Positions 19,899 to 38,601 of a stretch of 52,823 bases of DNA are shown in pieces. The position numbers and the translations under genes were made by a program. A model generated the notes under the pieces. It made no database searches. It was given only the letters and a program-made list of their open reading frames with translations, and was not told the origin of the DNA. Source of the stretch: Burkholderiales bacterium (lineage in GTDB: Bacteria; Pseudomonadota; Gammaproteobacteria; Burkholderiales; Ga0077523); contig JALHMS010000027.1 in NCBI GenBank assembly GCA_022843925.1, forward strand, positions 1 to 52,823, read 5' to 3'. Within the stretch, counting starts at the first letter, position 1; each line of letters starts with the position of its first letter.

Positions 19899-20570
19899 TC
19901 ACCAGAACTGCCACGCCCGAGTATAGAGGACCCATGCGCCCAGCAATCCGTTGGTGACGGCGTGGGCGACGGTCGGTGCCCACAGGTTGCCCGTGACGCG
20001 GTACAACCCGCCGTAGGCAAGCCCCGCGATGATCCCGGCGAACCACTCGTTGTGCTCGAATCCGAAGACGACCGACGACAGCAGCAGCGCCTTGAAGGTC
20101 ACCGCGGCGGGTATCACGGCGCGGAAGTTCGGGTTGTCGATCCAGCGCATCACGAAGGACCGCCAGAAGAGCTCCTCCATCACCGGCACCACGAGCGCGG
20201 CACCGCCGATGCGGAAGAGGGCCAGCGCGACGTTCACGTGCTCGCCATCCCGCGGGTCGAAGCCCTTGCCGGGGGCGCCCCGATGCATCCACGAGGCGGA
20301 CAGGTTCACCCACAGAAGGAAGACAACGATCCCCACGACGAGCGACAGAGACCAGTAGCCGCCGGGCATCGCGAACCGCCCGCGCAACTCGTCGTAGTGC
20401 TTCCAGAAGAATCCCAGGGCCAGCGCCACCAGCACCACCCTGACCGGGTACAGCCACCGGACGTCGAAGGCCGTCGAATCGGCAAACATCCCACTCAGGG
20501 CGAGCAGGGCGATGTAGATCGCGAAGGGGATGATCCGGGCGGCGGCGGGATGGGCGAGCCAGGCGGGCAT
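19899..20570 (-). CDS. CAAX prenyl protease-related (CPBP family) membrane protein
   Basis: A 223-residue inner-membrane protein with about six hydrophobic segments. CPBP/Abi protease motifs are present: Glu132-Glu133 with Arg137 (MEELFWRSF), His173 (FGFEHNEWFAG) and His203 (APTVAHAVTN), the expected intramembrane glutamyl-protease residues. I recognise it as the PEP-CTERM-associated CAAX-protease-related type, which in other genomes sits with exosortase/EPS genes or is fused to exosortase E. Substrate unknown. The ATG at 20570 (MPAWLAHP) is chosen because the longer upstream frame is Arg/Gly-rich and non-hydrophobic. It is followed by epsL after 17 bases and preceded by the coiled-coil gene with a 71-base gap. 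Confidence 0.88.
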   Translation of the reverse strand: MPAWLAHPAAARIIPFAIYIALLALSGMFADSTAFDVRWLYPVRVVLVALALGFFWKHYDELRGRFAMPGGYWSLSLVVGIVVFLLWVNLSASWMHRGAPGKGFDPRDGEHVNVALALFRIGGAALVVPVMEELFWRSFVMRWIDNPNFRAVIPAAVTFKALLLSSVVFGFEHNEWFAGIIAGLAYGGLYRVTGNLWAPTVAHAVTNGLLGAWVLYTRAWQFW

Positions 20571-20641: not shown

Positions 20642-21328
20642 TTATCGTGCCGGTGGGATCCTCGCTGCCTCGACTCGGTCGCGATAGTCCTCGAGCAGAT
20701 TCTCGACCTCGACGCGGCGCACGCGTGTGAACGGCTCGCGGCGCTTCAAGGCGTCCCAGAATCCGACGTCGCGGTACTTGTCCATCAGCTCGGTCGCCAC
20801 GACCGCAAGCGCCCCGTTCTTCTCCTCGCACGTGGCGAGTGCGGCCGCGCCCTGCCGGCCGGAGGCCTGCAATGCCGCGATCTCCGAAGCGCGCGCGGTC
20901 AACGCCTCCTCGCGCCGGGCCAGTTCGGCCGTGGCCTGCCCGATCTGCGCTTGCGCCTGCCGGAGCTTCTCGGCGAGGGCCTTCCGCTCGGCATCCGCGC
21001 TGGCGTGCTCCCGGGTCATCGCGTCCAGCTTCTGCTGCAGTTCCGCGGCGCGCCGCCGCTCCTGCGCGACGCCCGCCTCGACGGCCTTCGCCTTCTTCTG
21101 GACGTCCGCGAGTTGACCTTCGACCGCCGCCTTCTCGGTCTCGGCGCGGGCGCGGGCCTCCTCCGCCTGCCGCTGAGCCTCCTGGACGCGGCGCAGGACC
21201 TCGCGGTCGCGGTTGGCCTGGCGCGCATTGGGATCCTGCGCGAACGCCGACGGCGCGACCGATGGGATCAGGAGGCCGGGAGCGAGCACCAGCGCCATGG
21301 CCAGGGGGAGGATGAGCAGGCGGCGCAT
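20642..21328 (-). CDS. secreted coiled-coil protein of the TonB/porin locus
   Basis: A 228-residue exported protein. A signal peptide ends near residue 31 (LLIPSVAPSAFAQDP). From about 38 to 170 it is one long Ala/Glu/Gln/Arg-rich coiled coil (RRVQEAQRQAEEARARAETE and similar), then a short globular end with TCEEKNGALAVVATELMDKY and VRRVEVENLLEDYRDRV. Function unknown. It starts 1 base after the porin stop, so it is translated with the porin, and it is the last gene of the exbB-exbD-tonB-porin series. A periplasmic spacer or chaperone for the porin or TonB complex is a reasonable guess only. Confidence 0.85.
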   Translation of the reverse strand: MRRLLILPLAMALVLAPGLLIPSVAPSAFAQDPNARQANRDREVLRRVQEAQRQAEEARARAETEKAAVEGQLADVQKKAKAVEAGVAQERRRAAELQQKLDAMTREHASADAERKALAEKLRQAQAQIGQATAELARREEALTARASEIAALQASGRQGAAALATCEEKNGALAVVATELMDKYRDVGFWDALKRREPFTRVRRVEVENLLEDYRDRVEAARIPPAR

Positions 21329-21329
21329 G

Positions 21330-23159
21330 TCAGAACTTCAGCATGAGGTCGCCCTGCAGCACGTCGATCGCGAGCGCCGGGCCGTAGATCGCGTTCGCCG
21401 TCAGCCAGCGCCAGCGCATCCACACGTTGGTGTCGATACCGTAATTCAGGCCGAGCATGTAGCCCTTCGCGTTGGTGCCGCCGAGCAGCACGTTCGCCTG
21501 GGTGAACGCATCGAGGACGGCGTCCGGCTCCACGTACCGGTAGCCGAGGAACACCGACGTGTTGCCGCGACCCCAGACGTCCGGATTGCCGACGGTGAGC
21601 ATCGTCTGGTACGCCGTGGTCCTCGCCTCGAAGTCGAGGCCGGTGCGGGCGAGGATCTCCCCCCGGTCGAAACCGATGTTCTTCGCGTAGTCGCCGGTGA
21701 GGCGCACGTGCAGCGGATCGAGATGACCGAGGTCCAGCGCACCGGACAAGTTGAGGATGTGGAACCGGGACGCGAGCGCGAGCCGTGCCGCCTGTCCCGT
21801 ACCCGCGTTGATGTCGAAGACCGTGTTGCCCTTCTGCCGGAACGGCGGCACCGTCCAGTCGTTCGCGTTCGGGGCTGCGATCGTGTTGCGCTGGCCCTCG
21901 ATCGAGTCGTAGTGGAAGTACCCGACGCCCACCTTCAGGCCCACGTTCCGATCCGGGATCCACTCCGCGCCGGCCTGCGCGCCGAGCATGCTCTTGTCGC
22001 GCGGCGCCCGCACCGTCTGGGTGGGGTCCAGCAACTCCATCTGGAAGGCACCGACCGTGAAGAAACCTTCCGCGGTGCTGCTGAACCGCGGTTTGTAGGT
22101 GATCGCGCCGCCCTCGAAGTTGAGATCCTCGTACCACAGAAGGTCGGTGGGCCAGAACCACGGGTTGCCGATACGGCCGGCCTGCGCGGAGATGCGCGGA
22201 TCCGGGTCCCACGCGATCGCCGCGCGGTCCACCACCAGCCGGAATCCGTCCGGATCGCCGTACTGACCGAGGCGGGGGTTGGCCGACACCGGCGTACGCC
22301 CGGTCGCCAGCCGCGCGATGACCTTGAAGGTGTCGGAGACCTTCGCCGTCGCGCCCAGGCGGAACCGGAACCGGAACCCGTCGACGTCCGTCTGGGTGTT
22401 GCCGATCGGCAGGCCGTCGCGCAGTGCGCCGGTGACGGCGTAATACGTGGTCGGGTCGGTGTTGCCCGACCCGTAATACTCTCCCTGATACCGCAGGCGG
22501 AGGTCGCCATCGAACGAGATGCGGTCCATCCATCCCGGCAGGGTTCCGGGATCGCCCCACCGCTCGGCCTTCGCCTGGGCGAGGACATCCTGGCGGATCT
22601 GGTCGCGCATCTCGTTGCGTACGATCTCGGGAATGTACGGAACGCGGACGACGCCCTTCTCGGGCGGGGCGGCCTCCGCGGTCGCCGGCGCCCCCGTGGC
22701 AGGGGCTGCGGGTGCTGCCGCGGCCGGGGGGGTCCGCACCACCACATCCGCCAGCGCGCCGCGATCGCGCGCGGGCAGGAGTTCTTCCGCCTTCTCGCGC
22801 GGGATCACGCCGTCCTCGACCATCAGCCGGATCAACCGCACCGTGGTCGCCTGGGCGGCCTCGAGTTCCTGTCGCTCCTTGCGGATCTGCGCGAGGAGGG
22901 CCGCCGCCTCGGCGGTCGCATCGTCCCGCGGCGCCGCCTCGGCAGGCTTCGCCACGGCGCTGCGACGCGCGGTGGCCGCCGCGGCCGCCGCCCGGGGCGC
23001 CTTGCGGACAGTGGTCGGCGCCTTCTTCTCGGCAGCGGGCGGGGTCGTCTGGGCCTGTACGGCACCGGTGGCGACGAGCACGGTGATCGATCCGGTGACG
23101 AGGCTGCGAAGTCGGGATGCTGGCGTCGCGCGGCCGGAGGGGGAGATGGGGTGATTCAT
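21330..23159 (-). CDS. putative porin (Porin_5-like) with N-terminal periplasmic extension
   Basis: A 609-residue outer-membrane protein. A signal peptide (to about residue 36, GAVQAQ) is followed by an Ala/Lys-rich linker and a short coiled coil about 70-115 containing LIRLMVEDGVIPREKAEELL, a pattern common before this barrel type. The barrel begins near WMDRISFDGDLRLRYQGEYY (about residue 205) and runs to a C-terminal strand ending LQGDLMLKF, with terminal Phe. Its extension could reach through the periplasm. No TonB plug domain or obvious TonB box is seen, although tonB lies 16 bases upstream in the same unit. Substrate unknown. Confidence 0.85.
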   Translation of the reverse strand: MNHPISPSGRATPASRLRSLVTGSITVLVATGAVQAQTTPPAAEKKAPTTVRKAPRAAAAAATARRSAVAKPAEAAPRDDATAEAAALLAQIRKERQELEAAQATTVRLIRLMVEDGVIPREKAEELLPARDRGALADVVVRTPPAAAAPAAPATGAPATAEAAPPEKGVVRVPYIPEIVRNEMRDQIRQDVLAQAKAERWGDPGTLPGWMDRISFDGDLRLRYQGEYYGSGNTDPTTYYAVTGALRDGLPIGNTQTDVDGFRFRFRLGATAKVSDTFKVIARLATGRTPVSANPRLGQYGDPDGFRLVVDRAAIAWDPDPRISAQAGRIGNPWFWPTDLLWYEDLNFEGGAITYKPRFSSTAEGFFTVGAFQMELLDPTQTVRAPRDKSMLGAQAGAEWIPDRNVGLKVGVGYFHYDSIEGQRNTIAAPNANDWTVPPFRQKGNTVFDINAGTGQAARLALASRFHILNLSGALDLGHLDPLHVRLTGDYAKNIGFDRGEILARTGLDFEARTTAYQTMLTVGNPDVWGRGNTSVFLGYRYVEPDAVLDAFTQANVLLGGTNAKGYMLGLNYGIDTNVWMRWRWLTANAIYGPALAIDVLQGDLMLKF

Positions 23160-23175
23160 GGTGGGGGAAGGGATC

Positions 23176-23850
23176 TCAGCCAGCGGTGCGAGAAGACAGA
23201 CGCAGCCGCATGGGCTGGGGCATGTCGCTCGGGGGAGGTTGTTTCAGCGGGCGCACCTCGAGCAGCGCGCTCCGGATCGTCCGGTCGATCTCTTCGTTGC
23301 CGGTGCCGTCCACCACTTCCACGCGGTCGATCGTGCCGCGCTCGGTGAACCAGACCTTCACGACGGTCTTGTAGTTGGACTGGCGCAGCTTGTCCCTGCG
23401 CAGCAGCTCGTCCTGCAGATGGGTCTGCACGAGGTTCGCGAACCAGGCGAACTTCGCCCCGCCGCCTCCACCGCCGCCCGTCTGGGGCCCGATGGTGGTG
23501 ATGTCACGACCGCCGGGCCGGCCCTGCAGACCGAACCCATCCGAACCCGCACCGCCCGCCGCGTCCACGCCGAGGCTCTCCGCGGGTGGCGGCTGGTCGT
23601 CGGCCTGCTTCGGTTCCGGATCGGGGTCGGGATCGGGCAGCTTCACCTCCTCCTTCTTGATCTCCGGCTCGGGCGGCTTCTCCTGCGGCTTGGGCGGCGG
23701 CGGTGGCGGCTGCTGGCGCAGCACGGCAATCTGCTGGGCCTTCGGCTTCGCCGACTTCACGGGATTCTGGAGATACACGTACAACCCGTACGCTCCGGAC
23801 GCCATCAGGACGACGAACCCGATCCAAAGCGCGATATAGCGCAGGTTCAT
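23176..23850 (-). CDS. tonB: TonB family energy transducer
   Basis: A 224-residue protein with a single N-terminal membrane segment (about 6-27), a Pro/Lys/Glu/Asp-rich periplasm-spanning stretch about 40-95 (a run of six Pro, then EPEIKKEEVKLP), a Gly-rich spacer (six Gly), and a TonB C-terminal domain about 135-215. The latter contains TVVKVWFTERGTIDRVEVVD and EEIDRTIRSALLEVRPLKQPPP. It would couple proton-motive force from ExbB/ExbD to an outer-membrane partner. It sits 4 bases after exbD and 16 before the porin gene, with no plug-type TonB-dependent receptor gene in the window. Confidence 0.93.
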   Translation of the reverse strand: MNLRYIALWIGFVVLMASGAYGLYVYLQNPVKSAKPKAQQIAVLRQQPPPPPPKPQEKPPEPEIKKEEVKLPDPDPDPEPKQADDQPPPAESLGVDAAGGAGSDGFGLQGRPGGRDITTIGPQTGGGGGGGAKFAWFANLVQTHLQDELLRRDKLRQSNYKTVVKVWFTERGTIDRVEVVDGTGNEEIDRTIRSALLEVRPLKQPPPSDMPQPMRLRLSSRTAG

Positions 23851-23854
23851 CGTG

Positions 23855-24265
23855 TCACTTCACCAGGCGCTGCGTGACGAGGCCGAGCTGGGTGATGTCG
23901 AGCCGGCCGCACAGGTCGAGCACGTCGATCACCTTCTCGTACTGCACCCGGGCATCGCCCTTGATCACCACGGGGAACTCCGGCGTCACGGCCTTGAACT
24001 GCAGGAGCCGCTGCTCCAGTTCCGCCATCGACACGGGGTACGTGTCGAGGAAGATCTGGCCGTCCTCGCGGATCGTGATCGCCTTCGTGGTCGGCTTCGC
24101 GAGGCTGGGCGTGTTCGACGCCTTCGGCAGGTTCACCTTGATGCCCTGCACCGACGCGGTGGTCATGATGATGAAGATGACGAGCAGCACGTACGCGAGG
24201 TCGAGCATCGGCGTGACGTTGATCTCGTCGTACGGTTCGTTGCCGTCCTGGACCTTGGCTGACAT
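23855..24265 (-). CDS. exbD: ExbD family biopolymer transporter (second copy)
   Basis: A 136-residue inner-membrane protein with one membrane segment (TPMLDLAYVLLVIFIIMTT, about residues 18-37) holding the conserved channel Asp, and a periplasmic domain with KVNLPKAS, the standard ExbD strand. It lies between the ExbB-like fusion gene (22-base gap) and tonB (4-base gap). It differs clearly from the copy at 11 kb, so the two motors are not a recent duplication. Confidence 0.93.
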   Translation of the reverse strand: MSAKVQDGNEPYDEINVTPMLDLAYVLLVIFIIMTTASVQGIKVNLPKASNTPSLAKPTTKAITIREDGQIFLDTYPVSMAELEQRLLQFKAVTPEFPVVIKGDARVQYEKVIDVLDLCGRLDITQLGLVTQRLVK

Positions 24266-24287
24266 GGCGCTTTCCCGTCCCTGGTCC

Positions 24288-25976
24288 TCAGTCCGCGTAC
24301 CGCTCGGCGATGCGGCTCGTGAGTTCGTCCACGAAGACCTGCATGTCGGCCGAGATGACCTTGATCCGGCTGGCCAGGTAGTTGTAGCCGAAGAGCGCGG
24401 GGATCGCGACGGCCAGACCGGCCACCGTCGCCACGAGTGCGGCGGCGATACCCGGCGCGATGGCGTTCACGTTCACGTCGCCCGCGGCGGCGATCGCGGC
24501 GAACGTGATCATCACGCCCACCACCGTGCCGAGCAGTCCGAGGAACGGTCCGCCGGAGATCGAGATGGTGAGCAGCACCATCTGACTGTTGAGACGCGCG
24601 CTCTCCCGCACCACCTGCGCATCCATCGTCGCGCGGATCGAGTCGATCGCCTTCCCGGAGATCACCGTCTTGCCGGAATCGAGACGCTTGCGCAGTTCGC
24701 CCGCAGCGACGTCGTAGATCCGCCTGAGCGTCGCGTGCCGCGCTCCCTTGGTGTCCCCGGGCGCCGCGAGAAGATCCTCGATCTCCGCGAAACGCTTCTG
24801 GAACGCCTTGTTCGCGTTGTCGGTCTGCGCCATCGCGATCGACTTCGTGAACATCACGTAGAAGCTCAACACCATCATGACCATCAGGATCGCGATCACG
24901 ACCCAGCCGTCGATCGTCACCGCCGAGAGCAGGATGCCGACGTACGACGTGCTCTCACCGCCCTCACCGGCCTCGGCCTCGGTCGCGACCTTCACCAGCG
25001 TCGCAGCGTCGCCCTGCGACGCCACCGCGAGGGCGATCGCGCCGGCCGTGCGTGCGGTGTTGGCGATCGTCAGTTCGTCGAGCTCGCCCTGGAAGTCGGC
25101 CCCGACCACCACCTCGCCGGAAACGGCCCCCGCCTTCGCCGCCACGGCTGCAGCCTCGCGTCCGTCGACGTGCAGCACGATGCGATCACCGAGCGTCACC
25201 GCGACGTGATGCCAGGCCCCCGCGGGGAGAGCCGCCTTGCCCGTGGCGCCCGCCGACGTCGCCACCCAGACCTGACCGCCCTCGTATTGGATCTGCAGCG
25301 CGCCACCCTGCTGCGACAAGAGCGTCGCCTTCTGCTCCGCGATCGCGGGCTTCACCCAGACCGATACGGTCATCCCGCCCGGACCGCTGGCGAGCGACGG
25401 CGCCGTCACTGTGAGGCGCGCCGTACCGTCGAACACCGCAGCGCCGTCGGCGACCCCGGCACCGCCGCCCTTCACCCCGGTCACCGCCACCGGCTGCGCG
25501 TAGGCCGTCGAATCGCGGAAGGCGCCGTCGGCCTCGGCGAAGTGCATGACCAACGTGTCGTTGTCGGTGTAGGTGCCCTTGGGGTTGCCTGCGGGCACCG
25601 CCTTCTCGTTGCCGTAGTAGAGCCACACGTGGCCCTCGGCGGACCCGGGAGTCAGCCGCGGCACCTTCACCCACACGAGCGCCAGTTCGTTCACGCCATC
25701 GAACTTCTCGATGTGGAACTCCAGGGGGGTCTTGTCATCGTCGGCGACGAAGCGCAGGTCGTTGCCGTCGATCTGCGCCTCGTTGAACACGAAGTTCCCC
25801 GTGTGCAGCCGCACCAGCACAGGCACGTTCGCGAGGCCTTCCTTGAGGGCCGCGCCCTGGTCGGTGGTGTCGAGCGACACCTTGCGGCGCCCGGTCCATT
25901 CGGGGTTCCACCAGGCCTGCGCGGCCGCGGGCAGCACTGCGATCAAGACGAGAAGGACGAGGAACAACCGTTTCAT
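24288..25976 (-). CDS. ExbB/MotA-TolQ protein with periplasmic DUF2341 and LamG-like domains
   Basis: A 562-residue chimera. A signal peptide (to about residue 21, LPAAAQA) is followed by a DUF2341-like domain about 22-120 (WWNPEWTGRRKVSLDTT, VWVKVPRL, VWLYYGNEKA). A concanavalin/LamG-like domain about 150-310 follows (FDGTARLTVTAPSL, MTVSVWVKP, GAWHHVAVTLGDRIVLHVDG), then a membrane segment about 345-375, and a MotA/TolQ/ExbB channel domain to the end (SISGGPFLGLLGTVVGVMITF, LVATVAGLAVAIPALFGYNYL). The extra domain would hang in the periplasm and could bind glycan or a protein partner. It heads the exbB-exbD-tonB-porin-coiled-coil unit, 204 bases after the giant TpsA gene; that gap shows no promoter I would defend. 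Confidence 0.92.
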   Translation of the reverse strand: MKRLFLVLLVLIAVLPAAAQAWWNPEWTGRRKVSLDTTDQGAALKEGLANVPVLVRLHTGNFVFNEAQIDGNDLRFVADDDKTPLEFHIEKFDGVNELALVWVKVPRLTPGSAEGHVWLYYGNEKAVPAGNPKGTYTDNDTLVMHFAEADGAFRDSTAYAQPVAVTGVKGGGAGVADGAAVFDGTARLTVTAPSLASGPGGMTVSVWVKPAIAEQKATLLSQQGGALQIQYEGGQVWVATSAGATGKAALPAGAWHHVAVTLGDRIVLHVDGREAAAVAAKAGAVSGEVVVGADFQGELDELTIANTARTAGAIALAVASQGDAATLVKVATEAEAGEGGESTSYVGILLSAVTIDGWVVIAILMVMMVLSFYVMFTKSIAMAQTDNANKAFQKRFAEIEDLLAAPGDTKGARHATLRRIYDVAAGELRKRLDSGKTVISGKAIDSIRATMDAQVVRESARLNSQMVLLTISISGGPFLGLLGTVVGVMITFAAIAAAGDVNVNAIAPGIAAALVATVAGLAVAIPALFGYNYLASRIKVISADMQVFVDELTSRIAERYAD

Positions 25977-26180
25977 GGAGGACTCGGGGAGGGTGCCAGC
26001 GGATGGCGCATTCTCGGCACGCTCTGTTGCACGAATATGACCGAGAGATGTGAAGTGAATGACTGCAACTTGCCGACAGCTGCGACACAGATACGCAATT
26101 TCCGACTAGCCGACCATGGCAAATCGCGACCACTGCACAGGCCTTACCATGAGCCGATCGGATCACCCCGTGCGAATGCC

Positions 26181-29100
26181 TCACTCATCCCCGTACCCCA
26201 GTACCTGCACCGTGATGAAGGATGGCATCGTCTTCAACGCGTTGGCCGCGCTCTCCGCAGCCGCCGTCTCCGCGGCCCGGGCCACGGCAGCGGTCGTCTG
26301 CGACTCGTTGCTGGACGTGCCGGACAGCCCGATCGACAGCGAGGGCGTCGCGTTCGGCACCCCGCCGCTCGTGCCGCCTACGCTGATGTTCGCCGCGTTG
26401 GCCACCGTCTGCGCCCGCACGACGAGGTCACCTGCGACCACGACCCCGGCGTCACCGGCATCCACCTCGCCGAGCGGCGTGATCAGCGCGGCACTGCCGG
26501 GCGGCACATCCGGTCGGCTGAGCAGCACGCCGATGCCCGAGCCCGAGATGGAACGCGACGTGTCGAGCACGAACTTGCCGTCGCGGATCACGATCTGCGG
26601 CGGCGGCGTGGCGGTCGCCGTCTTCGCGCCCTTGCCCGCATCGATGTTGCCGAACGAGGCCCAGAGGTTGATGTCGCCACCGCCCAGGGTGAATACGCGC
26701 GACTGGTTGACGAGGAAGTCCTCCAGCACCGTGGCCTCGATGGAACCACCGCGGACCGTGACGATCCCGAGGGACGACGCGCCCTTCGACAGCACGCCCG
26801 GATTGGCCAGACCCGCATTGACGAGGCCACCCGGCACCCGCAGTTCGATGGCCCCGCCCTGCTCGGTCTTGATCTGACTGAAGAAGAGGTTCACGTCGCC
26901 GGCGTAGCGCTCGGCCATCGCGAGGTAGTTCGAGGCGAATCCCCTCGCCCCGTCGTTCGGATCGAACGTGGCCCCGGGACGCGACATCTCGGCAAGCAGC
27001 GGCTTCACGTTCTTGCCGTAGCTCCGCTCGAGCAGACCCACGAGCGCAAGGAAGTTCGACTCCGTGAGCTGCGCCTGCACGTCCGGGTCCACCGGGTAGA
27101 GCGTGGCCATCGCCCGGTAGCCGCGCACCTCGAAGCCCGGCAGCGCGGCTTCGAGATTCCCGGGGTTGCCCGCCAGCCGCAGTTCCGAGAAGAGGACCGA
27201 ATTGACGAAGGCGGTCTGCGCAGGCCGGTCCAGCGCGAGGAATGCCGTGATGGCATCGTCGGCCGGGAGATTGGCGTCCCCCGTGCGCGAGCGCATGTAG
27301 GCGACGAGCTCCGTCCGGTAGTTCACCGACTCGACGAACGCGTCGATGGAAGCGCCCCCGAGGCCCTGCAGGGCCTGCAACGCGGACGCACGACCGGCCG
27401 GCGTGTCGGGGAACTCCGTACCTCCGTTGTCCTTCACGAACTGCCGCACCTCCCGCGGGAACTGCGCAGCCAGCCGGTCGAGATCGGTGGAGAGATACGT
27501 GTCGAGGAATCCGCTGTAGTCCGGCGCGACACCGCCGGCCGAGACGCGGATGGCCGCGCCCGATTCGGGTAGGAACGGGTTGTCGAGATTGCCGCGGGTG
27601 AGGATGCCGAGCGAGTTCCCGAGGTCCACATCGCGCCCGGTGTTGATCTGCAGTTCACCCGGCCCGCCCCACTGGATACCGCTCAGGTTGCTGCGCTGGT
27701 TGCCGAGCGGATCGCGCAGCGTGTTGAAGCGCAGATCACGCCCCGCCTCGAAACGGGTGATGTCGGTCGGGTTCACGTTCTGCCCGATCACCCAGGTGTC
27801 GACGATGTCCCGGCCCGCCACCAGCATCAGCGATTTCGCAAAGACGCCGAGCGGGCTGACACCGGTCTGCGGATCGACCGGCCCCCGCACGTCGCCGCGC
27901 GCGGCCACGATGCGGATCGGGGTCGTGTCCCCCGCGTGCAGGACCTGCTCGTCGTGGAACAGGGCGCCCTGCTCGGAGGCGTTCACGAGCAGCGGGCTGA
28001 GGGAGTTGGAGAACGCCCGATCCGGAGAGAGCGGCGCCGGCAGCGACAGCGGAGAGACATCCGACATCAGGATGCGGCCATCGACCGTGACGTCCGTGGC
28101 GGCCAGCAGTTCGAACTGCCCGCGACGATCCGGTGCCATGAAGAACTCCCGGCCGACGCGCGCGTCGCCGGAGAGGGCAGCGACGCGCACGGTCCCCGGG
28201 TAGATGACGGACGACACGGACTCACCTGCGCTACCGAAGCTCGCGAGCGGCGACCCGCTGATCTGGGGCAACAGTTCGCGGTTGTTCGACAGCGTCGCGG
28301 ATCCCGTGAGCGCCGAGAGATCGAAGCTAGCCCCTTCGCCGTAGGTCAGAAAGTACGACGTGAGCAAGCCCGTGGTCCCGATGTTGCCTCGCGGCTGCCG
28401 CTGGATCGTCGGGTTGAAGACACCCTCGACTGTGGCGTCGCGGCCGGCGCGGACCCCGATGCTGGCGTCGCCGAGCGCGAACATCGCATTGAGCGGCGTG
28501 CCGGAGACCGTGGTGGCCGAACCCACGTCGCGCCCGGCCTGGATGTCACCGATGCCACGCTGCACCACGTACAGGCCGCTCAGCAGGTCGCGACCCGCAC
28601 GCACCGTGAGATCCCCACCGCCCAGCTCGACGAAGTTCCCGGCAAGCGGTGCCGACGCCGCGTCGCCTCCGAGCTGCGCATTGGTCGGCACCGCGCCGCT
28701 CACGTTCGCGATGTCGCGGCCCGCCTCCATCCACACGTCGCCGCCCCCGAGCGCCCCGACGCCTTCATGGAACGCGTCGTAGCGCACCCACCAGGTGGTC
28801 TGCGGGTTGGGTTGGATCTCGTTCCGCGCGTTGCGCCGCACGTCCCGATACAACCATTCCGTGACCGCGCGGCCCGAGGAAGCCCCCCGCAGATCGCGCC
28901 CCGCGACGACGCGCACATCGCCGCCACCTTCCGTGTAGGTCGGGGTATGGGTCCGGGCCGCGCCCGCGACGGTCGGTGGATTCGGCACGATGAAGCCGGC
29001 CACTGCCGCCCCCGGCTCGCCGGACGTATAGATCACTGCCCGCGCGTCGGCCAGCACCAGGTCACGGGCCGCGACCACATCGATGAATCCGTCGCTCGTG

Positions 29101-32100: not shown

Positions 32101-35100
32101 CCAACGCCGGGCAGGATGGCGAAGCTGCCGGGCAGTGGATCGCGGGCCGCCGAGGCGCCGGGGTTGAAGATGTCGGCCGAGCCGCCGGGCCCTGGCACGA
32201 ACTCGTACGCCAGCAGATCGCCACCGCCGGACAGATCGACGAGCGCGCCCGCAGCCAGCGTCACCGTCGGTGCCGCCAGTTCGATGCGCTTCTCCGGCGG
32301 CGTGGTGATCACGAGGTTGCCGAAGCCGGCCCCAAGGTCGTACACGTAGTCCTTGCCCGACAATTCCGTCTGGCCGAAAGGAATCGCCTGCCCGTTGCCG
32401 CTGGCACTCGTGACACTGCCCGCACCGAGTACCACGCTGTCCGTGGCTTCGAACCGGATGGACCCGAACGGCGCCGCGACGAGGGTCTCCTGGCGGATGG
32501 TCCGCGCCTGGACGAGCAGTTCACCGGCAGCCGAGAGGATGGGTGTGGTGGGCCCGACGACGGCCGGTGCCAGGAACTCGATGGTCCCGTCCGTCGAGAC
32601 GGCGCCGGTCCCGGTGTCGACCGCGACGGTGCGGAAAGTGAAAGACGTCGCCGTCGTCGGCGCGATGCGTTCGGCCTCGAGTTGCACGATCGACGCCGCC
32701 GTGGTGAGGCCACCAATCAGGCGATAGGCGACCCCTTCGCCCGCCACCGTGTCGACCAGGACACCCCGCAACCGGATGTCGCCGCCGGAGACGCCCGTAC
32801 CGCTCGTGCTTCGGACGGATACGCGGTCCACGCCGGTCAGGTTCACACGGCCCACGAGGTCGACGACGCGCGCCCGCACGTCGAGCGTTCCCGCACCCGC
32901 CACGGGAGTGATCTGCAGTTGTCGGGAGAGGTCGGTGCTGCCGAGGTTCACGACCGCCGAGTCCAACGACACGGCCGCTCCGTTAGCGACGCGGATCTCG
33001 GGCGCATCGAGCGTGAGGCTGCGACCGGGGGAGAGCGTGAGGGTATCCGGGAACTCGATGCGATCGCGCGCCATCAGCGTCACGGCCGAAAAGCCGGCGT
33101 CGGTGATCCTGTCGGCGTTCAGGTACGCACCACCGCCCAGATCGACGCCGCCGACCACCGTCGGGATCGGGGCACCCGGCGCGGCACCCGGCGCCAGGAA
33201 GGTCGGGTTCCCGCCGACTCCGGACCCCTTCATGACGACGATGCGTTTCTCCGTGCCCGGGAAATTGACCTGCGGTGCAGCCGTCATGGCAACGAAGAGC
33301 GTCCCGCCCGCCTGCCCTGCCCGCCCCGGTGCGGCGCGGAACGTGGCGTCGGCAAGGATCCCTTCGCGCGCGACGAGGTGGATCTCACCGGCGGAACTGG
33401 CAACGGCCGTGCGCCTGTAGCTGAGGTCGGCGACCGTCACGCCGCTCGCGGTGATCCCTGTGACGCTCGCAACCGGCACATCCAGGACATCCTCGATGCG
33501 CGGACCCCGAAGCCCGGCGGTCGTCGTGCCGGAGACCACGCCCGAGACATCGAGCACGGACCCGGCTTCGAGCACCACGCTGCCCTTGGCGGCATTGATT
33601 TCGATGCGCCCGCCATCGTGAACCACCCCGGTGAAGAACCCGAGGTTGTTGCGCCTCGACTGCGCAACCCCCTGCGCGAAGATGCGCGCGGTGCTGCCGA
33701 TCCATACCGACACATCGGACTCGAACGTGTCGTTCGACCCCGGCGGCACGTTGCCGATGGTGATGGTCCCACCGGGTGCGGACAGCCCGCCCAGCACGGT
33801 GACTCGACGGCCCGATTCGATGGCGATGCTGCCGAGCGGATCCACCTCGACGATGGCATTGCGGGCGATCTCGACGTGCCCGCGCGCCGCGCTGTCGGAC
33901 CGCAGTACGATGGCCGCCGGGGACCACGGATCGACGAAGTCGTCGAAGCCGCCCGCGAGCCGCGACCATTGGCGAAGCCCGCCCGTCAGCGGGTTCGTGA
34001 CAGCGCTATCCGGGCCGGTGCGGAACATCGGCGTGCCGGTGCGCTTGGATTCGAGTGCCGCACCATCCACCTGCCAGGCCGAGACCCTGGGTGTGACGAC
34101 GGCGCCATCGGCGACGAGCAGTCCGTCCTGCCCGTTCATCGTGAAGCTCGTGAAGCCGCCGCGATCGAAGAATGCCGGCGCGAGATGCAGTTCGCCCGTC
34201 GCGCCGGTGCCGGCCGCGCCGATCACGATGCGGGAGGTGGAGATGGCCAGATCTCCACCGGTTCCGACCACCCCGCCCATCGGCTGCACCACCGCGAAAC
34301 CGCGCAGCTCGCCGCCCAGTGTCAGCGTCGACACCTGGGGATCCGCCTCGGAGAGCCCGAGCCTGCCGGTCGTGATGGCGATCCGCCCCGCGTCACCGGC
34401 AGTCAGACGCCCTGCCTCGTCGACGCGCGCACCGCCGGAGACATCGAGCACGGAGCCGCCGGCCAGCCGCACGTCGGCCACGCCACGCAGCGAGATCGAC
34501 CCGCCGTCCAACACGATCGCCGAACCAGGCGCCACAGGGTTGAGCGATCGACGATCGTTGGTCCACGTGCCGGCCGTGTCGATGTGCACGCCGGAGGCCA
34601 CGTCCAGTGCGAACCGCGACGGATCGGTGATGTCCTCGCCGCTGACCTCATGGGTCGCGAGCGTGACGATGGCCCCAGGCGCATTGATGTTCGCCGATAC
34701 CGCGACGGCGCGCCCGGCGAGCGAGAGCGAACCCCAGGGGGCGAGGGTGATGGGTGTTTCGACGGTGACGGCACCGTCGGAACTGGCGTTCAGACGCGTG
34801 AAACCACCAGTCCCGAACAGCGCGATCGGATCGAGTGCCACGCGATCCCGCCACGGCGCATCGAGCACGCTGTCCGCGTTGAACGTCGACCCGAGGCGCT
34901 GCGGGATTGCCACGAACGCCAGATCGCGCAGCTTGCGGCTCCCGGCGGTGATGGCATCGGCCGAGAGGTCGCCCAGCAGTAGCTGCCCGCCCTGGGGTGC
35001 GAGCGCTGCCGTGCGCTGGAACTCGCCCGCGGTGGCGCGGCCGACCAGCGTGCCGTCGAGAACCGCCCCGTGCGACACCACTGCGATGGACCCCGCGCTT

Positions 35101-36935
35101 CGCCCCTCCGTGTAACCCGCCACGAGCGGGAGGTCGGCCTTGTTCGTGGAGAGAAGCCCGGCCGCCCGGCCGGCAACGACGTCCGTCTCCGGCGCGCGGT
35201 CCGCGAAACCGACGTAGACGCGGTCCAGCGTCGCCTCGCTCATCGCATAGGTGACCCCGTCGGCACCCAGGAGTCGCGTTTCGGCGGCACGCCCCGCGTT
35301 GTAGGTCAGCACGCTGCCCGACACGTCGAGCACACTGCCTTCGCGGAGGATCACATCGCCTTCCGAGCGCAGCGTGATCGTTCCGCCGCCGGCCGTGCGT
35401 TCGTCGACGGCGCGGGCCACCTGGTTGACGAATCCGGAAACATCGCCGATCGGCGTGCCCTTGCGGATGTCCACCGTGACCTTCTGGCCGCGCACGAAGC
35501 TGTCGCGCAGCAGCGGGGAGTCGCGGAGTTCGTTGCCGCGCAGTTCCACGTCGATGAAGTTGCGTTCCACCGACAGCGTAACGCCCTGCGTGCCGGCGAC
35601 GTCGATGCGGGCCCCGGGCGCCACGTAGATGCGCACGTCACCCACCGCAGGGCTGCCGGGCACCTGGAAGAGGGGCGCAGTCTGGGCCGAGATGGCCACC
35701 TCGCCGGCGGGTGCGCGCAGCACGCTGTCCGCCTCGAGAACCACGCGCCGTCCGACCACGTCGATGCGCGAGGGGGTGAAGCCCTGCGCGTCCTGCGTGG
35801 TGGTCCGGTCGCCTGTCTGCGGCATCACTTCCGTCGTGCTGCCGGGGCCGAACGTGACGGTGCCGGTCCGCTGGCCCCGGGGGATCACCACGTTGCCGTT
35901 CACCGTCACCGTGGAGATGCCGCTGCTCTGACTGACCTGGTCGCGGGCCTGCAGGAAGACCGAACCGTTGACGCTGACCGACGTCGTCGCCGAGACCCTG
36001 CCGTTCTGGTTGACGGCGAAGGCCGCGAGCGTGGCATTGCCGCGGTCGACGAGGACGCGCCCCGTCGAAGCATTGGTGACGGTGCCGCCGACGACGTCGG
36101 TCGGCGTGCCTGCACCATCGAACGTCTGATACGGATCGACCTCGACGAGAAACCCGCGCAGGGTCGCGTCGAGCGGCGCCGTGAGGAACACCTTGGCGCC
36201 ACCGGCCAGCACGACCTGACCCTCCGGTGCCGAGATCGTCCCTTGGTTGTTCACCCTGGGGGCCAGCACCATGATGCGTCCACCGGTGGACGCATTGAGC
36301 GCGGCCCCGGGCGCGACGTCGATCAGGCTGGTCTCGAACTCCGCCTTCGTGCCGCCCCACGTGAACGCGGCCTGCGCGTTGGCGCCGACGGGCAGCGACA
36401 GGAAGCCGCGGGTGAAGGCGTCGCCGTTCACCTGCAGCGTGGAGGCGAAGAGGGACCCCACGTCGACCTGGGCACCGTCCTTGAAGAGGATCCCGTTCTG
36501 GTTGACGAGATAGATCTCGCCGGCGGCGCGGATCGACCCCTGGATGACGCTCGGGTTGACGTCGTGGATCTGGTTCAGCGTCGCCGAGCCTGCGCCCTGC
36601 TGGTGGTTGAACTGGACGGTCGCACCGGCACCCACGTTGAAGCTCTGCCAGTTGATGACGGCCCGGAGGCTGGACTGATCCACCGTCATCGTGGCGTTGT
36701 TTATCGCAGCGGTGGCGGCACCGCTGGCGGCGATGTTCGGGCTGCCGATGGGGAGCGTCGGTACCGGCAGCGTCGGGTCGGCCACGGCCGCGGCGGCGGC
36801 GCCCAGCAGCGCCGCCGAAACGAGGCCGGCCGCCGATGCGCGACGCTTGCTGCGCACGGCGGTGGCGTTCTCCCCCACGGGGACCAGCATTCCGTGGATC
36901 CGGCTGGAGACAAGGCGGAAGCAGCGCGCGTTCAT
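26181..36935 (-). CDS. giant filamentous-haemagglutinin-type TpsA exoprotein
   Basis: A 3,584-residue secreted protein. It starts with an extended signal peptide of the ESPR kind (MNARCFRLVSSRIHGMLVPV) and a hydrophobic core, with cleavage near ADP about residue 53. A TPS secretion domain (haemagglutinin activity domain) covers about 60-190, with INWQSFNVGAGATVQFNHQ, IQGSIRAAGEIYLVNQNGIL and a SLFASTL-type motif. The bulk is repetitive beta-helix (GSVLDVSG, GRDL and GAVIDASG-type repeats). Near the C-terminus come a helical stretch with LTESNFLALVGLLERSYGK and a Ser/Thr/Ala-rich tail ending VLGYGDE. No toxin, VENN or CDI domain and no anchoring motif is seen. The C-terminal region resembles the DUF3739-bearing haemagglutinin family. 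AGGAG precedes the ATG. TpsB is encoded 76 bases upstream. Confidence 0.93.
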   Translation of the reverse strand: MNARCFRLVSSRIHGMLVPVGENATAVRSKRRASAAGLVSAALLGAAAAAVADPTLPVPTLPIGSPNIAASGAATAAINNATMTVDQSSLRAVINWQSFNVGAGATVQFNHQQGAGSATLNQIHDVNPSVIQGSIRAAGEIYLVNQNGILFKDGAQVDVGSLFASTLQVNGDAFTRGFLSLPVGANAQAAFTWGGTKAEFETSLIDVAPGAALNASTGGRIMVLAPRVNNQGTISAPEGQVVLAGGAKVFLTAPLDATLRGFLVEVDPYQTFDGAGTPTDVVGGTVTNASTGRVLVDRGNATLAAFAVNQNGRVSATTSVSVNGSVFLQARDQVSQSSGISTVTVNGNVVIPRGQRTGTVTFGPGSTTEVMPQTGDRTTTQDAQGFTPSRIDVVGRRVVLEADSVLRAPAGEVAISAQTAPLFQVPGSPAVGDVRIYVAPGARIDVAGTQGVTLSVERNFIDVELRGNELRDSPLLRDSFVRGQKVTVDIRKGTPIGDVSGFVNQVARAVDERTAGGGTITLRSEGDVILREGSVLDVSGSVLTYNAGRAAETRLLGADGVTYAMSEATLDRVYVGFADRAPETDVVAGRAAGLLSTNKADLPLVAGYTEGRSAGSIAVVSHGAVLDGTLVGRATAGEFQRTAALAPQGGQLLLGDLSADAITAGSRKLRDLAFVAIPQRLGSTFNADSVLDAPWRDRVALDPIALFGTGGFTRLNASSDGAVTVETPITLAPWGSLSLAGRAVAVSANINAPGAIVTLATHEVSGEDITDPSRFALDVASGVHIDTAGTWTNDRRSLNPVAPGSAIVLDGGSISLRGVADVRLAGGSVLDVSGGARVDEAGRLTAGDAGRIAITTGRLGLSEADPQVSTLTLGGELRGFAVVQPMGGVVGTGGDLAISTSRIVIGAAGTGATGELHLAPAFFDRGGFTSFTMNGQDGLLVADGAVVTPRVSAWQVDGAALESKRTGTPMFRTGPDSAVTNPLTGGLRQWSRLAGGFDDFVDPWSPAAIVLRSDSAARGHVEIARNAIVEVDPLGSIAIESGRRVTVLGGLSAPGGTITIGNVPPGSNDTFESDVSVWIGSTARIFAQGVAQSRRNNLGFFTGVVHDGGRIEINAAKGSVVLEAGSVLDVSGVVSGTTTAGLRGPRIEDVLDVPVASVTGITASGVTVADLSYRRTAVASSAGEIHLVAREGILADATFRAAPGRAGQAGGTLFVAMTAAPQVNFPGTEKRIVVMKGSGVGGNPTFLAPGAAPGAPIPTVVGGVDLGGGAYLNADRITDAGFSAVTLMARDRIEFPDTLTLSPGRSLTLDAPEIRVANGAAVSLDSAVVNLGSTDLSRQLQITPVAGAGTLDVRARVVDLVGRVNLTGVDRVSVRSTSGTGVSGGDIRLRGVLVDTVAGEGVAYRLIGGLTTAASIVQLEAERIAPTTATSFTFRTVAVDTGTGAVSTDGTIEFLAPAVVGPTTPILSAAGELLVQARTIRQETLVAAPFGSIRFEATDSVVLGAGSVTSASGNGQAIPFGQTELSGKDYVYDLGAGFGNLVITTPPEKRIELAAPTVTLAAGALVDLSGGGDLLAYEFVPGPGGSADIFNPGASAARDPLPGSFAILPGVGAAYGPYDHQSQQGTTGLIVGDQIQLRGVAGLPDGVYTLLPRAYASLPGAFLVTPSETPVLDLPFGPVSARYAGPVTGDLRNVQLVAGYRTAREFDGTVIRDERTSLFVIHDQRALGRLAEYTRTSVGGFFPGTTGAQMPADAGRLVLETSGALSLAGTIAGAGARGLQVDIAAPAIRVHAPGDVPASGFLNLDVSRLNALGASSLLLGGTRSTADGMTITTGVGSREVILSNRADSPLLAADLMLVSAGDIRIEDGAVLRATGTGAPTPGTIAIAGNGAFVRVSTAPVATVARSAFDRVAGTLTVAPNALLDAGTSVLLDATRTTTLASNVQIEAAAVSLAAGRIDLGAAVPATDGLVIGGALLQRLGGGDALALKSYSTIDLYGANTIGAVDADGRPLLASLTLDAPAVNAFGAGDKVFRAGTMVLTNSSGTVVSPTGTGTGDLRFEALGDGTTTGGTLTLGPGAVALGGADLVVLEGDRQVRIAGTGEMVSTAAELRIVTSTLTAAAAADGRITSSGLLSLQAPATPLAGAASPGLGSRLALVGTRVDVATRIDLPSGVVDMMATGARADDAIRLLSGAVIDASGTEVVFTPGVTRVTDGGTVRMRTEAGDIALAAGSSIDVSAGGNGAKAGLVEMQSGRSLALGGTLTGTGGGSIAADIAQDGDLDAFAASALAGGFSGAQRYRVRSGDLALAADRTMTAREIRLAADAGTVTVAGMLDASAGKGGRIEVWASGDVTTAGTSRLLVRATGGNGDGGLVFLGTSAGAIAVQSGTTLDVSAAGDGAAGEVWLRAPRTVDDVAITALAPTLIGTDEVIIEAFRVYSATTIGTAAGSGLNISNTGGAASLFNETRDYLSVARPAVATRLGSDATIRLRPGIEVRGGTISLAADWNFYCGTAATCAGPNGVWSFGGEPGVLTLRSEGNVALNRTLSDGFRALPPATPTTASITVMNDAYVPRAGGGWSYRVVAGADIGSADLLATVAGTEADVTLAAGRLVRTSDGFIDVVAARDLVLADARAVIYTSGEPGAAVAGFIVPNPPTVAGAARTHTPTYTEGGGDVRVVAGRDLRGASSGRAVTEWLYRDVRRNARNEIQPNPQTTWWVRYDAFHEGVGALGGGDVWMEAGRDIANVSGAVPTNAQLGGDAASAPLAGNFVELGGGDLTVRAGRDLLSGLYVVQRGIGDIQAGRDVGSATTVSGTPLNAMFALGDASIGVRAGRDATVEGVFNPTIQRQPRGNIGTTGLLTSYFLTYGEGASFDLSALTGSATLSNNRELLPQISGSPLASFGSAGESVSSVIYPGTVRVAALSGDARVGREFFMAPDRRGQFELLAATDVTVDGRILMSDVSPLSLPAPLSPDRAFSNSLSPLLVNASEQGALFHDEQVLHAGDTTPIRIVAARGDVRGPVDPQTGVSPLGVFAKSLMLVAGRDIVDTWVIGQNVNPTDITRFEAGRDLRFNTLRDPLGNQRSNLSGIQWGGPGELQINTGRDVDLGNSLGILTRGNLDNPFLPESGAAIRVSAGGVAPDYSGFLDTYLSTDLDRLAAQFPREVRQFVKDNGGTEFPDTPAGRASALQALQGLGGASIDAFVESVNYRTELVAYMRSRTGDANLPADDAITAFLALDRPAQTAFVNSVLFSELRLAGNPGNLEAALPGFEVRGYRAMATLYPVDPDVQAQLTESNFLALVGLLERSYGKNVKPLLAEMSRPGATFDPNDGARGFASNYLAMAERYAGDVNLFFSQIKTEQGGAIELRVPGGLVNAGLANPGVLSKGASSLGIVTVRGGSIEATVLEDFLVNQSRVFTLGGGDINLWASFGNIDAGKGAKTATATPPPQIVIRDGKFVLDTSRSISGSGIGVLLSRPDVPPGSAALITPLGEVDAGDAGVVVAGDLVVRAQTVANAANISVGGTSGGVPNATPSLSIGLSGTSSNESQTTAAVARAAETAAAESAANALKTMPSFITVQVLGYGDE

Positions 36936-37011
36936 GGGAACTCCTGACTACCTGAAGCGAATGGGATGAAGGGCCGGGGTGATGGACGGGACGAATGCCG
37001 GCGGCGCGACA

Positions 37012-38601
37012 TCAGAAGTCGTAGGCCACTCGGAGGTGCACACGCGTGCTTCCAGCCTTAGTCACGAGGGCGTCCTCCATCGGGAAACCCACTTCGAGGG
37101 ACGCTGCGAGATCGGGCTGTCGCTGGTAGCGAAAGCCGAATCCGGCCGCCCACGGCGTCTGTCGCGAGGCCTGACCCGCAAGCGGGCTCTTGAGGCGCAC
37201 GCTGGCCGCATCGACGAAGCCGAGCAGGATCAGTTCGCCGACCCCGCCCGCTTCGGCACCACCGGTGAGCGATGGCGACCGCATCTCGGCGGTCGCGAGC
37301 CAGCCCTCGTCGCCGAGCACCTCGGCCTCGTAATAGCCGCGCACCCCGTCGGCGCCCGCGCCGACGAACTGCTCGGTGTTGATGAGCGGTGCGCTGGCGG
37401 TGTGTGTGATCACGCGGGCGAAACCGACCATGCCGCGCTTCAGGTTCTGCTCGCGCGACAGTTCGGCGCGCAGGGTGATGAAGTTCGCGGTGGCCCGGAA
37501 TCGCCGCTCCGCGAACTCGCGGTCGGAGTTTCCTGCCAGCCCGCCGCGCATCGCGAAGACCGACGTGAGGCTGCCGCGCGTGGTGCCCTTGTCGCCGCGC
37601 TTCGTCGCGCTGTACTGCGCGGTGATCGGCGTGTAGCTCACGGTGGATCCGAGCGACGCACCGGGTCCGATCGATACGTCCTGCAGGGACTCCTTGTAGT
37701 CCACACCGACCACCGCGCTGTGGAAGAGGCGGTCGCTTCCGGGGAGCGGACGGATCACGCGCGCGCCGAGGATGTTGCTGTTGCCGACCACCGTGGACGA
37801 GCCCAGCGTTGCGACGGTGCTGCGGGCGCGAACGCCGTATAGCGCCAGCATCGTGCTGCCGCCGGCGGGCCGGAACACGTAGTTGGCGGAAAGTGCGCTC
37901 ACCTCCGAGGTGTTCTCGGGCGAGAGCAGATAGATGAGCGACGCGCTGTGATCGCGCCCCCAGAGATTGTCGTAGCGGACGGAACCCTGGATCCGCAGCG
38001 GAGATGTATTCGGCGCCTGCCGGTTGTTGACTTCGACGGCCGCGTGGAACGGGCGCTCGTCCTGCACCCGCAGTTCCATCTCGACCTCGCCGCGCTGCTG
38101 GCCGGGGCGGAGCACCGGTGTCACGGTCCGACCGCCCGCCTGGTTGAACTCGGTCAGTTCCTTCTGGGCATCGGGGAAGTAAGGTACGGTCCCCGGCGCG
38201 ATCGACGGGAGCTTCGAACGGATGTAGTCCCGCGAGTGATAGCGATTGCCAGTGACGACGACCTTCTTCACGACGCCGTCCACGACCTGCAACCGAACCA
38301 CGCCGTTCTTCACTTGCTGCGGCGGCAGATCGACGGTCACCGTGAGGTAGCCCGCGTCCTGATACACCTTCTCGAGAGCAGCGCGCGCCGCCTGTGCGTC
38401 CGCGATGGACTTGCCGTAGCCCAGATGCGGATACACGGCCTTCTCGATCTCGATGCCGGGGAGCGTCGTGTTGCCGTCCACGACGAACTCGAGGATATCG
38501 AAGGCGGCCTCCTGCGCGCGGGCAGGCGACAGACTCAACGCCGCGAGGGTGATGAGGGCGATAACGACATGCGAAAGCACTTCGACTGCTCTGCGTTCCA
38601 C
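37012..38601 (-). CDS. TpsB (ShlB/FhaC/HecB family) outer-membrane transporter
   Basis: A 529-residue outer-membrane Omp85-superfamily translocator. A signal peptide ends near SPARAQ (residue 30). POTRA domains follow (FDILEFVVDGNTTLPGIEIE about 34-53; VVDGVVKKVVVTGNRYHSRD about 128-147), then a 16-strand barrel with the conserved VRGYYEAE motif near residue 430 that lies inside the pore, and a C-terminal aromatic strand (VHLRVAYDF). It secretes its cognate TpsA, here the giant gene directly downstream. The start is a GTG at 38601 without a clear ribosome site. Confidence 0.94.
   Translation of the reverse strand: MERRAVEVLSHVVIALITLAALSLSPARAQEAAFDILEFVVDGNTTLPGIEIEKAVYPHLGYGKSIADAQAARAALEKVYQDAGYLTVTVDLPPQQVKNGVVRLQVVDGVVKKVVVTGNRYHSRDYIRSKLPSIAPGTVPYFPDAQKELTEFNQAGGRTVTPVLRPGQQRGEVEMELRVQDERPFHAAVEVNNRQAPNTSPLRIQGSVRYDNLWGRDHSASLIYLLSPENTSEVSALSANYVFRPAGGSTMLALYGVRARSTVATLGSSTVVGNSNILGARVIRPLPGSDRLFHSAVVGVDYKESLQDVSIGPGASLGSTVSYTPITAQYSATKRGDKGTTRGSLTSVFAMRGGLAGNSDREFAERRFRATANFITLRAELSREQNLKRGMVGFARVITHTASAPLINTEQFVGAGADGVRGYYEAEVLGDEGWLATAEMRSPSLTGGAEAGGVGELILLGFVDAASVRLKSPLAGQASRQTPWAAGFGFRYQRQPDLAASLEVGFPMEDALVTKAGSTRVHLRVAYDF

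Follow-up and report, generated by a model that had tools for sequence, protein, structure and literature searches.

The window analysed here is the 52,823-nucleotide stretch at positions 1-52,823 of contig JALHMS010000027.1 from a Burkholderiales bacterium (assembly GCA_022843925.1), and all coordinates are given on it. On its minus strand lie seven consecutive genes that encode a TpsB transporter, a giant TpsA exoprotein, an ExbB fusion, ExbD, TonB, a Porin_5-type porin and a secreted coiled-coil protein. The order, shared strand and gaps (76, 204, 22, 4, 16 and 1 bases, counted from tpsB) that an earlier, sequence-only reading had described agree with the open frames, translations and Pfam matches; the PstS-like, PEP-CTERM and type II secretion system (T2SS) genes upstream of tpsB had gone unnoticed in it. 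That the genes form a functional unit is well supported. Its recurrence in distant bacteria suggests one machine, probably for nutrient capture and perhaps for phosphate. The genes of the block are as follows.

37012-38601, minus strand: TpsB transporter (Pfam POTRA_2 1.3e-16, ShlB 1.8e-8)
26181-36935, minus strand: TpsA exoprotein, 3584 aa (N-terminal TPS 7.1e-23; C-terminal DUF3739 6.6e-31 at residues 3419-3527)
26184-26225, minus strand: TpsA C-terminal peptide PSFITVQVLGYGDE, of the family PSx(I/L)TVEV(L/I)G(F/Y)G; unstructured tail in the AlphaFold2 (AF2) model
24288-25976, minus strand: ExbB fusion with N-terminal DUF2341 and LamG extension (Pfam DUF2341, Laminin_G_3, MotA_ExbB)
23855-24265, minus strand: ExbD (PF02472 2.2e-30)
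23176-23850, minus strand: TonB with Pro-rich spacer and short C-terminal domain (TonB_2 4.3e-9)
21330-23159, minus strand: Porin_5 porin with helical N-terminal extension, residues about 80-200 (PF16930 1.4e-139)
20642-21328, minus strand: secreted coiled coil, PA0697-like by position (a single weak, sub-cut-off Pfam match)

The first two genes form a two-partner secretion (TPS, type Vb) pair: TpsB has POTRA and a ShlB/FhaC barrel, and TpsA begins with a TPS domain (PF05860 7.1e-23, TIGR01901 2.3e-19) that, by eye, reads NQNG at the site where NPNG is usual. The next three make up a Ton system, with ExbB, ExbD and a TonB that has a C-terminal TonB domain, all recognised by Pfam. The ExbB part of the fusion aligns to solved TolQ and ExbB, and the LamG and ExbB columns are conserved across 64 sequences; the DUF2341 and LamG extension would lie in the periplasm. 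In ExbD, the Asp at residue 22 within the VTPMLDLAYVLL segment is taken for the membrane aspartate. TonB alone, used as a query, found no solved relatives at 0.1. The claim of the sequence-only reading that no plugged TonB-dependent receptor is present holds for the locus and fails for the genome, where 14 Plug-domain matches lie elsewhere, so the operon's TonB could have a distant plugged client.

Conservation of the neighbourhood

Sixty genomes were searched for the fusion: the window's own, 11 congeners and 48 from further families of the order. All 11 congeners gave strong matches (fragmented in G001 and G004), as did 7 of the 48 others, and the block stands in the same order in seven other families of the order. 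Nine of the 11 related regions read contain PstS-like, TpsB, TpsA, ExbB fusion, ExbD, TonB, Porin_5 and coiled-coil genes in that order, the PstS-like match being weak in G059 (E 5e-4); the remaining two start inside tpsA (G010) or end inside the porin (G011). At the 20 control loci, which have TolQ/ExbB-like, non-fusion matches, no TpsA, TpsB, TonB, Porin_5 or coiled-coil matches were found. Because the order recurs in seven other families and the control loci are empty, the neighbourhood is not due to chance.

A pattern scan of a species collection yielded 68 loci, selected by similarity to the fusion (L118, which is without the fusion itself, was excluded) and assigned by their titles to Beta-, Gamma- and Alphaproteobacteria and Verrucomicrobiota. 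Where the sequence suffices, ExbD (59/59), TonB (58/58), Porin_5 (55/55) and the coiled coil (52/52) stand beside the fusion. TPS genes flank it at 58 of 63 loci, a count that includes three with less than 3 kb upstream that were admitted because of a match; at loci with at least 3 kb upstream the count, made by hand, is 55 of 60. The sequence-only reading had held that joint occurrence of the TPS and Ton-porin blocks in distant genera would support it and had named confinement to this lineage as the case against it. Such a lineage-specific neighbourhood was rejected because the blocks co-occur across families, classes and phyla.

Several gene orders are retained (TpsB-TpsA-Ton, TpsB-Ton-TpsA, TpsA-TpsB-Ton and no TPS nearby); mapped on a quickly built tree of 64 ExbB fusions, they require seven changes, two of them to no TPS nearby (labels were assigned by hand on 49 of the 64 rows, and 17 of 61 inner branches are weak). 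This bears on the view that the block spreads as a cassette, with plasmids among its routes, and that its parts co-occur without mechanistic coupling. Porin_5 relatives do occur in 12 plasmid records, some of them very large replicons, and the block was read on plasmids of Klebsiella, Methylosinus and Aquabacterium. The repeated rearrangements, the divergent parts in G307 and a tpsA that lies about 15 kb off on the other strand in G194 argue against hitchhiking of this kind, which we consider very unlikely. The separate contigs in G160 were not counted here, since distance does not follow from a break between contigs.

Co-occurrence also extends to whole genomes. In three samples with 649 genomes, all 24 genomes with a DUF3739 TpsA have a full-length Porin_5 (21 of 21 without the sample centres G000, G358 and G356, which were chosen for having the locus), and one extra genome has the porin but no such TpsA. 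Among 274 genomes of the window's class (222 genera), DUF3739 is over its cut-off in 18, full-length Porin_5 is found in 19 and both in 18 (Fisher's test 2.8e-27, uncorrected for phylogeny). The genome with the porin and without DUF3739, G163, is 85% complete and has its Ton-porin unit on an 8.6-kb contig. Among 240 genomes of Alphaproteobacteria (the class of G358), DUF3739 and Porin_5 occur in the same three, where one of the porin matches is ended by the contig, as do DUF3739 and full-length Porin_5 among 135 genomes of Verrucomicrobiota (the phylum of G356). Porin searches were limited to E 1e-20; the match in G462 (E 5.6e-97), ended by the contig end, was counted as full-length, and a DUF3739 match in G281, under its cut-off and with a stop, was not counted. 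DUF2341 is present in 17 of the 18 class genomes with DUF3739 and the porin; the exception, G258, is 64% complete.

Matches to the barrel part of Porin_5 only were found in 14 of the 135 Verrucomicrobiota, all without DUF3739, and in G175 and G225 of the class sample, neither with DUF3739 over its cut-off. The DUF3739 TpsA therefore tracks the porin with its N-terminal extension and not the barrel as such. This tight pairing across classes and phyla suggests that the Ton and porin genes work with the fibre. A search of the literature available here returned nothing on DUF3739, PF12545 or PF16930, nor on DUF3739 together with "two-partner secretion". Among 14 control genomes, Plug matches appeared only in E. 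coli, Caulobacter and Bacteroides. P. aeruginosa has many plugged receptors and is probably not among these controls, and that PF10102 (bacterial part), PF16930 and PF12545 gave no match in them is uninformative for that species.

The TpsA tail, the porin and the Ton motor

Downstream of DUF3739, TpsA continues with an Ala/Ser/Gly/Thr-rich linker (mean 48 residues in 28 measurable sequences), followed by a strand-like peptide that usually lies 2-15 residues before the protein end and has the consensus PSx(I/L)TVEV(L/I)G(F/Y)G (core xTVEVxGFG). A strict first pattern matched the peptide in 39 of 60 TpsA proteins, a set that contains near-copies and some genomes twice; the pattern, widened after the misses had been inspected, finds it in 57 of the 60, in none of the 60 preceding segments of the same proteins and in 3 of 519 other open reading frames (ORFs). 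The AF2 model of the last 330 residues consists of a helical part, a part rich in beta strands, the linker at low confidence, a helix and an unstructured tail, and no solved fold matched the TpsA C-terminal model at E 0.001. The likeness of this tail to a TonB box is one of position, linker and strand-like pattern only, and we consider the peptide a candidate handle for the Ton motor. Two cysteines occur in the last 230 residues of 18 of the 60 family members and none in the other 42, the window's included. At six loci (L055, L058, L060, L061, L064, L066), TpsA ends past the conserved peptide in a two-cysteine motif (NCKEQQKDC-like) that resembles a cysteine hook.

The porin has Porin_5 as its one Pfam match. 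Its AF2 model (44 sequences, mean predicted local distance difference test score 78) is disordered at the start and then forms a helical extension (81-138, 178-198) and the barrel, and the secondary structure of the model contains no globular plug-like domain before the barrel. In this model-based comparison, the nearest solved fold is Veillonella OmpM1, with a template modelling score of 0.71 by target length and 0.39 by query length at 16% identity; OmpM1 has a stalk and a peptidoglycan-binding part in addition, whereas the window's porin shows only Porin_5 in Pfam. The conserved columns of the porin include some in the extension, with V173, Y175 and P177 reaching at least 90%. The Ton motor might act on the porin alone, with the N-terminal extension (its own coiled coil and the VRVPYVPE segment before strand 1) as the TonB contact; the porin would then be an energised or gated channel, and TpsA would merely gather ligand outside. 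The conserved extension, modelled as helices, fits such a contact, as do the position of the porin downstream of the fusion in 55 of 55 loci and the fact that full-length Porin_5 tracks the system while the genomes with the barrel part only are without DUF3739. Since the model has no plug-like domain, and since the DUF3739 partner and the TpsA tail are left unexplained, we hold this view to be possible but rather doubtful.

A domain related to the C-terminal domain of the operon's TonB occurs in VreA-like regulators. The C-terminal part of the operon TonB profile matches the C-terminal domain of VreA-like proteins at eight loci (L073, L081, L084, L108, L109, L112, L114 and Methylosinus; 5e-14 to 1.5e-17). 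Further proteins encoded at these loci match it more weakly, and the 20 TolQ/ExbB-like control loci, where tolA would be expected, give no match. Five of the six VreA-like proteins scanned have an STN domain (three over the cut-off), and that of L114 has none. Related grips in the VreA-like regulator and the Ton motor suggest a shared partner; a TolA/TonB-like C-terminus of VreA was already noted in 2009 (PMC2729926, available to us in part). Tandem exbD pairs were observed in the Ton units of R_G036 (L037/L038), L047 (G011), L069 and L194, and the pattern scan found no fusion relatives in viral contigs.

Relatives in other bacteria and the phosphate question

The block resembles the PUMA3/pdt locus of Pseudomonas aeruginosa, in which a TPS pair, ExbB, ExbD, TonB, a porin and a PA0697-like protein likewise lie in one stretch with a T2SS adjoining (PMC7035377, PMC4971064, PMC2729926; our statements on these and the other papers cited refer to the parts of them that were available). 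The likeness is one of names and gene order, not of compared sequence. The sigmaVreI regulon there (PUMA3) comprises hxc, lapA, pdtA, phdA, pdtB, exbB2, exbD2, tonB4 and PA0696-PA0699, where PA0696 is a putative porin, PA0698 is YbjN and PA0699 is PpiC; exbB2-exbD2-tonB4 is termed a "still uncharacterized putative TonB system", and PA0696-PA0700 are described as of unknown function (PMC7035377). A single promoter, for which PhoB is required, transcribes phdA, pdtB, exbB2D2, tonB4 and PA0696-PA0701 (PMC4971064), which bears on the question of a shared transcript raised by the sequence-only reading, and the locus is induced by phosphate starvation (PMC7035377, PMC4971064). As early as 2009, TPS, ExbBD and PA0696 homologues had been linked to this regulator in further species (PMC2729926). 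The pairing of secretion and Ton genes proposed from the sequence is conserved, and the kind of system is not new.

The window differs from PUMA3 in having PstS-like and PEP-CTERM genes and in that tpsA comes after tpsB. No VreA-VreI-VreR genes were found in a scan of ORFs from the block and from the region upstream of it, which covered part of the window's ORFs, and no phdA, YbjN, PpiC or LysR genes, the last being PA0701 in P. aeruginosa, were seen in the window's block. The T2SS beside the block parallels hxc beside pdt. A plasmid of K. quasipneumoniae (L190, NZ_CP084804.1) encodes TpsA, TpsB, ExbB, ExbD, TonB, porin, a hypothetical protein, YbjN, a peptidyl-prolyl isomerase (PPIase), a hypothetical protein and LysR; except for phdA, this is the order of PA0690-PA0701. 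DUF2341 and LamG are present in the ExbB of the plasmid, the porin belongs to Porin_5, and all seven core proteins match profiles built from the window's relatives. The plasmid is typed conjugative, and the locus lies near insertion sequence elements and arsenic genes. On the Methylosinus plasmid the order is STN protein, sigma factor, FecR, TpsB, ExbB, ExbD, TonB, porin, hypothetical, PPIase, YbjN and TpsA, an arrangement that links the variants; a PBP_like_2 protein adjoins on the other strand and is unmatched by the profile of the window's PstS-like protein (only part of it lies in the stretch).

Such a regulon may also mean co-regulation only, with separate phosphate-starvation or biofilm functions brought together and a TonB that serves receptors encoded elsewhere. 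The P. aeruginosa locus does belong to a PhoB/sigmaVreI regulon that also contains the Hxc T2SS, T2SS genes adjoin the window's block, the window's genome has its 14 Plug matches, and single mutants of P. aeruginosa were without effect in zebrafish (PMC2729926). Neither a full-length Porin_5 in 24 of 24 DUF3739 genomes, nor the specialised form of the LamG-ExbB, nor a TonB-related domain in VreA-like proteins is predicted by shared regulation alone, and we regard co-regulation alone as unlikely.

Three further systems share parts of the design. In HxuCBA of Haemophilus influenzae, a TPS fibre is combined with Ton-dependent uptake; HxuC is a TonB-dependent transporter, whereas the window has a Porin_5 and a private Ton motor. 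The anchored TPS adhesins CdrAB and HMW1 have, like the window, a giant TpsA. The C-terminal tail is periplasmic in CdrA and expected to be so in HMW1 and HxuA (PMC5422565), a location that is also probable for the window's TpsA; Ton and porin genes are additional here. Among "generic ion transporters" of the MotAB/ExbBD type, DUF2341 occurs on the A subunit as an added domain of unknown function, and the available part of that source describes no TPS or porin link (PMC12505986). With the kind of system already in print, what is new is the PstS-like variant without VreAIR seen beside the block, the tight DUF3739/Porin_5 coupling, the conserved TpsA tail peptide behind a flexible linker and, as far as profile matches indicate, a relation between the C-terminal domain of VreA-like regulators and that of the dedicated TonB.

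The PstS-like protein of the window (P0009) has no Pfam matches at 0.01. A profile of its family (21 homologues) matches nine solved chains at an E of at most 0.001 (best E 1.8e-6), of which six are phosphate-binding or -transport proteins, one an ABC substrate-binding protein, one an "alkaline phosphatase" and one uncharacterised. PBP_like_2 is under its cut-off in 5 of 10 homologues and over it in the Methylomagnum homologue. The window's protein contains SGATAP, DFGVSD and R..GSGT, which we take to be PstS phosphate-contact motifs and which most homologues retain in part; G53, A56, G183, D186, R272, S276 and G277 are invariant columns of the family. These modest matches, made by profile only, place P0009 with PstS and PBP_like_2 proteins, and phosphate binding is predicted. 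In 8 of the 13 genomes that have it, its contig agrees in length with that of the fusion, and the coordinates, compared by hand, place the gene about 12.6-14.7 kb upstream of the fusion. The PstS-like gene and the phosphate control of the P. aeruginosa locus favour a phosphate role of the system, to which we give about an even chance. On a Methylomagnum plasmid (L195, NZ_AP019784.1), PstS-like, TpsB and TpsA genes were observed on the same strand, with Porin_5 apart and phoU close; no exbBD-tonB match lies within the stretch read.

A proposed mechanism and the flanking genes

Starting from the observed composition, conserved linkage, co-occurrence, tail peptide and PstS relation, we tentatively propose a single outer-membrane apparatus, at somewhat less than an even chance; its membrane topology, TonB-tail contact, direction of work and phosphate cargo are what we infer. 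TpsB would secrete the giant TpsA fibre, which probably stays anchored with its Ala/Ser-rich linker and xTVEVxGFG peptide in the periplasm. The dedicated LamG-ExbB/ExbD/TonB motor would be coupled to TpsA, the C-terminal domain of TonB binding the tail through beta-strand addition in the manner of a TonB box. The motor may then pull the anchored fibre, the helical periplasmic extension of the porin or both, and ligand captured outside would be handed on to the porin. For the window's lineage, phosphate or a phosphate ester is a possible cargo, which the PstS-like protein would bind. The fuller version, in which the peptide is a TonB-box-like handle for the motor that VreA-type regulators sense as well, within a Ton-driven fibre-to-porin capture machine, seems to us improbable as a whole. 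Movement of a type V secreted fibre by the Ton motor, should it occur, would be a new job for Ton energy; the parts of the literature examined describe no such use in type V secretion. The TpsA tail and the porin extension offer two short, specific targets for binding tests.

Several observations weigh against this proposal. The contact between TonB and the tail is itself inferred, and the tail count carries the widening of its pattern and the redundancy of its set. Five loci (L059, L062, L065, L083, L101) have the Ton-porin unit, or its start, and no flanking TPS; a DUF3739 match lies elsewhere in the genomes of four of them and none in that of L062. Two genomes, G194 (L135) and G177 (L148), have a second fusion-ExbD-TonB set without Porin_5. 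In P. aeruginosa, insertions in tpsA, tpsB, PA0695 (tonB) and PA0696 left VreI-induced zebrafish lethality unchanged (PMC2729926). As to phosphate, a search of 43 genomes located the PstS-like gene in 13. All 13 are among the 22 genomes that share the window's arrangement or have no TPS nearby, and the 21 with the other two arrangements gave none. The Pho box CTGTCATNNNNCTGTCAT, which we take to be the E. coli consensus, is absent from the window at up to 3 mismatches, and a diverged box may be present. No excess of Pho boxes was found upstream of PstS-like genes (p<=0.05 in 1 of 25); the same scan gave 5 of 32 loci upstream of tpsB, 2 of 9 plasmid genes, and 0 of 59 and 0 of 55 upstream of tonB and the coiled coil, stretches that lie mostly inside the operon.

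On the same strand upstream of tpsB follow the PstS-like gene, the PEP-CTERM gene and the T2SS operon (about 41.5-52.3 kb), and a CAAX protease ORF and EpsL follow the coiled coil on the other side.

38701-40221, minus strand: PstS-like phosphate-binding protein (P0009), 506 aa; ORF to 40260, likely start ATG at 40221
40314-41120, minus strand: PEP-CTERM-type exported protein with C-terminal VPEPSTYAMMGVGIAALGFAARRR signal
41552-52280, minus strand: T2SS operon with secretin, GspE, GspF, GspG-like and pseudopilin-like ORFs
43297-43701, minus strand: GspG-like member of the T2SS operon
44210-46396, minus strand: secretin of the T2SS operon
48887-50788, minus strand: GspE of the T2SS operon
50847-52280, minus strand: GspF of the T2SS operon
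19902-20570, minus strand: CAAX (Rce1-like) protease ORF after the coiled coil; cluster of 9 entries, some from the same genome
within ORF 18625-20457: EpsL, after the CAAX protease ORF

Together with the window, homologues of the PEP-CTERM protein near the PstS-like gene make up a single 12-locus cluster (11 other genomes); in the G039 homologue the PEP-CTERM Pfam match is under its cut-off. The secretin of the window is of the TPR-secretin type, and of 20 upstream regions fetched, two of which were short and one largely tpsA, 9 contain GspD/E/F/G homologues in the stretch that comes next, against 0 of 20 control loci. In G177 (L148), T2SS genes and a PstS-like gene are close to the second, porin-less Ton set. 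A LuxR-type regulator-like ORF, identified by eye at 42316-43113 on the minus strand, overlaps the pseudopilin-like ORF 41549-43300 in another frame. From about 50600 to 52823, a dense repeat family with the motif GHARESVRSGRGAP...GGMAPSYK in several frames reaches into the start of the gspF frame. A second ExbB/ExbD-like pair, found by tblastn at 11038-12304 on the minus strand, is likely tolQ/tolR of a tol-pal cluster.

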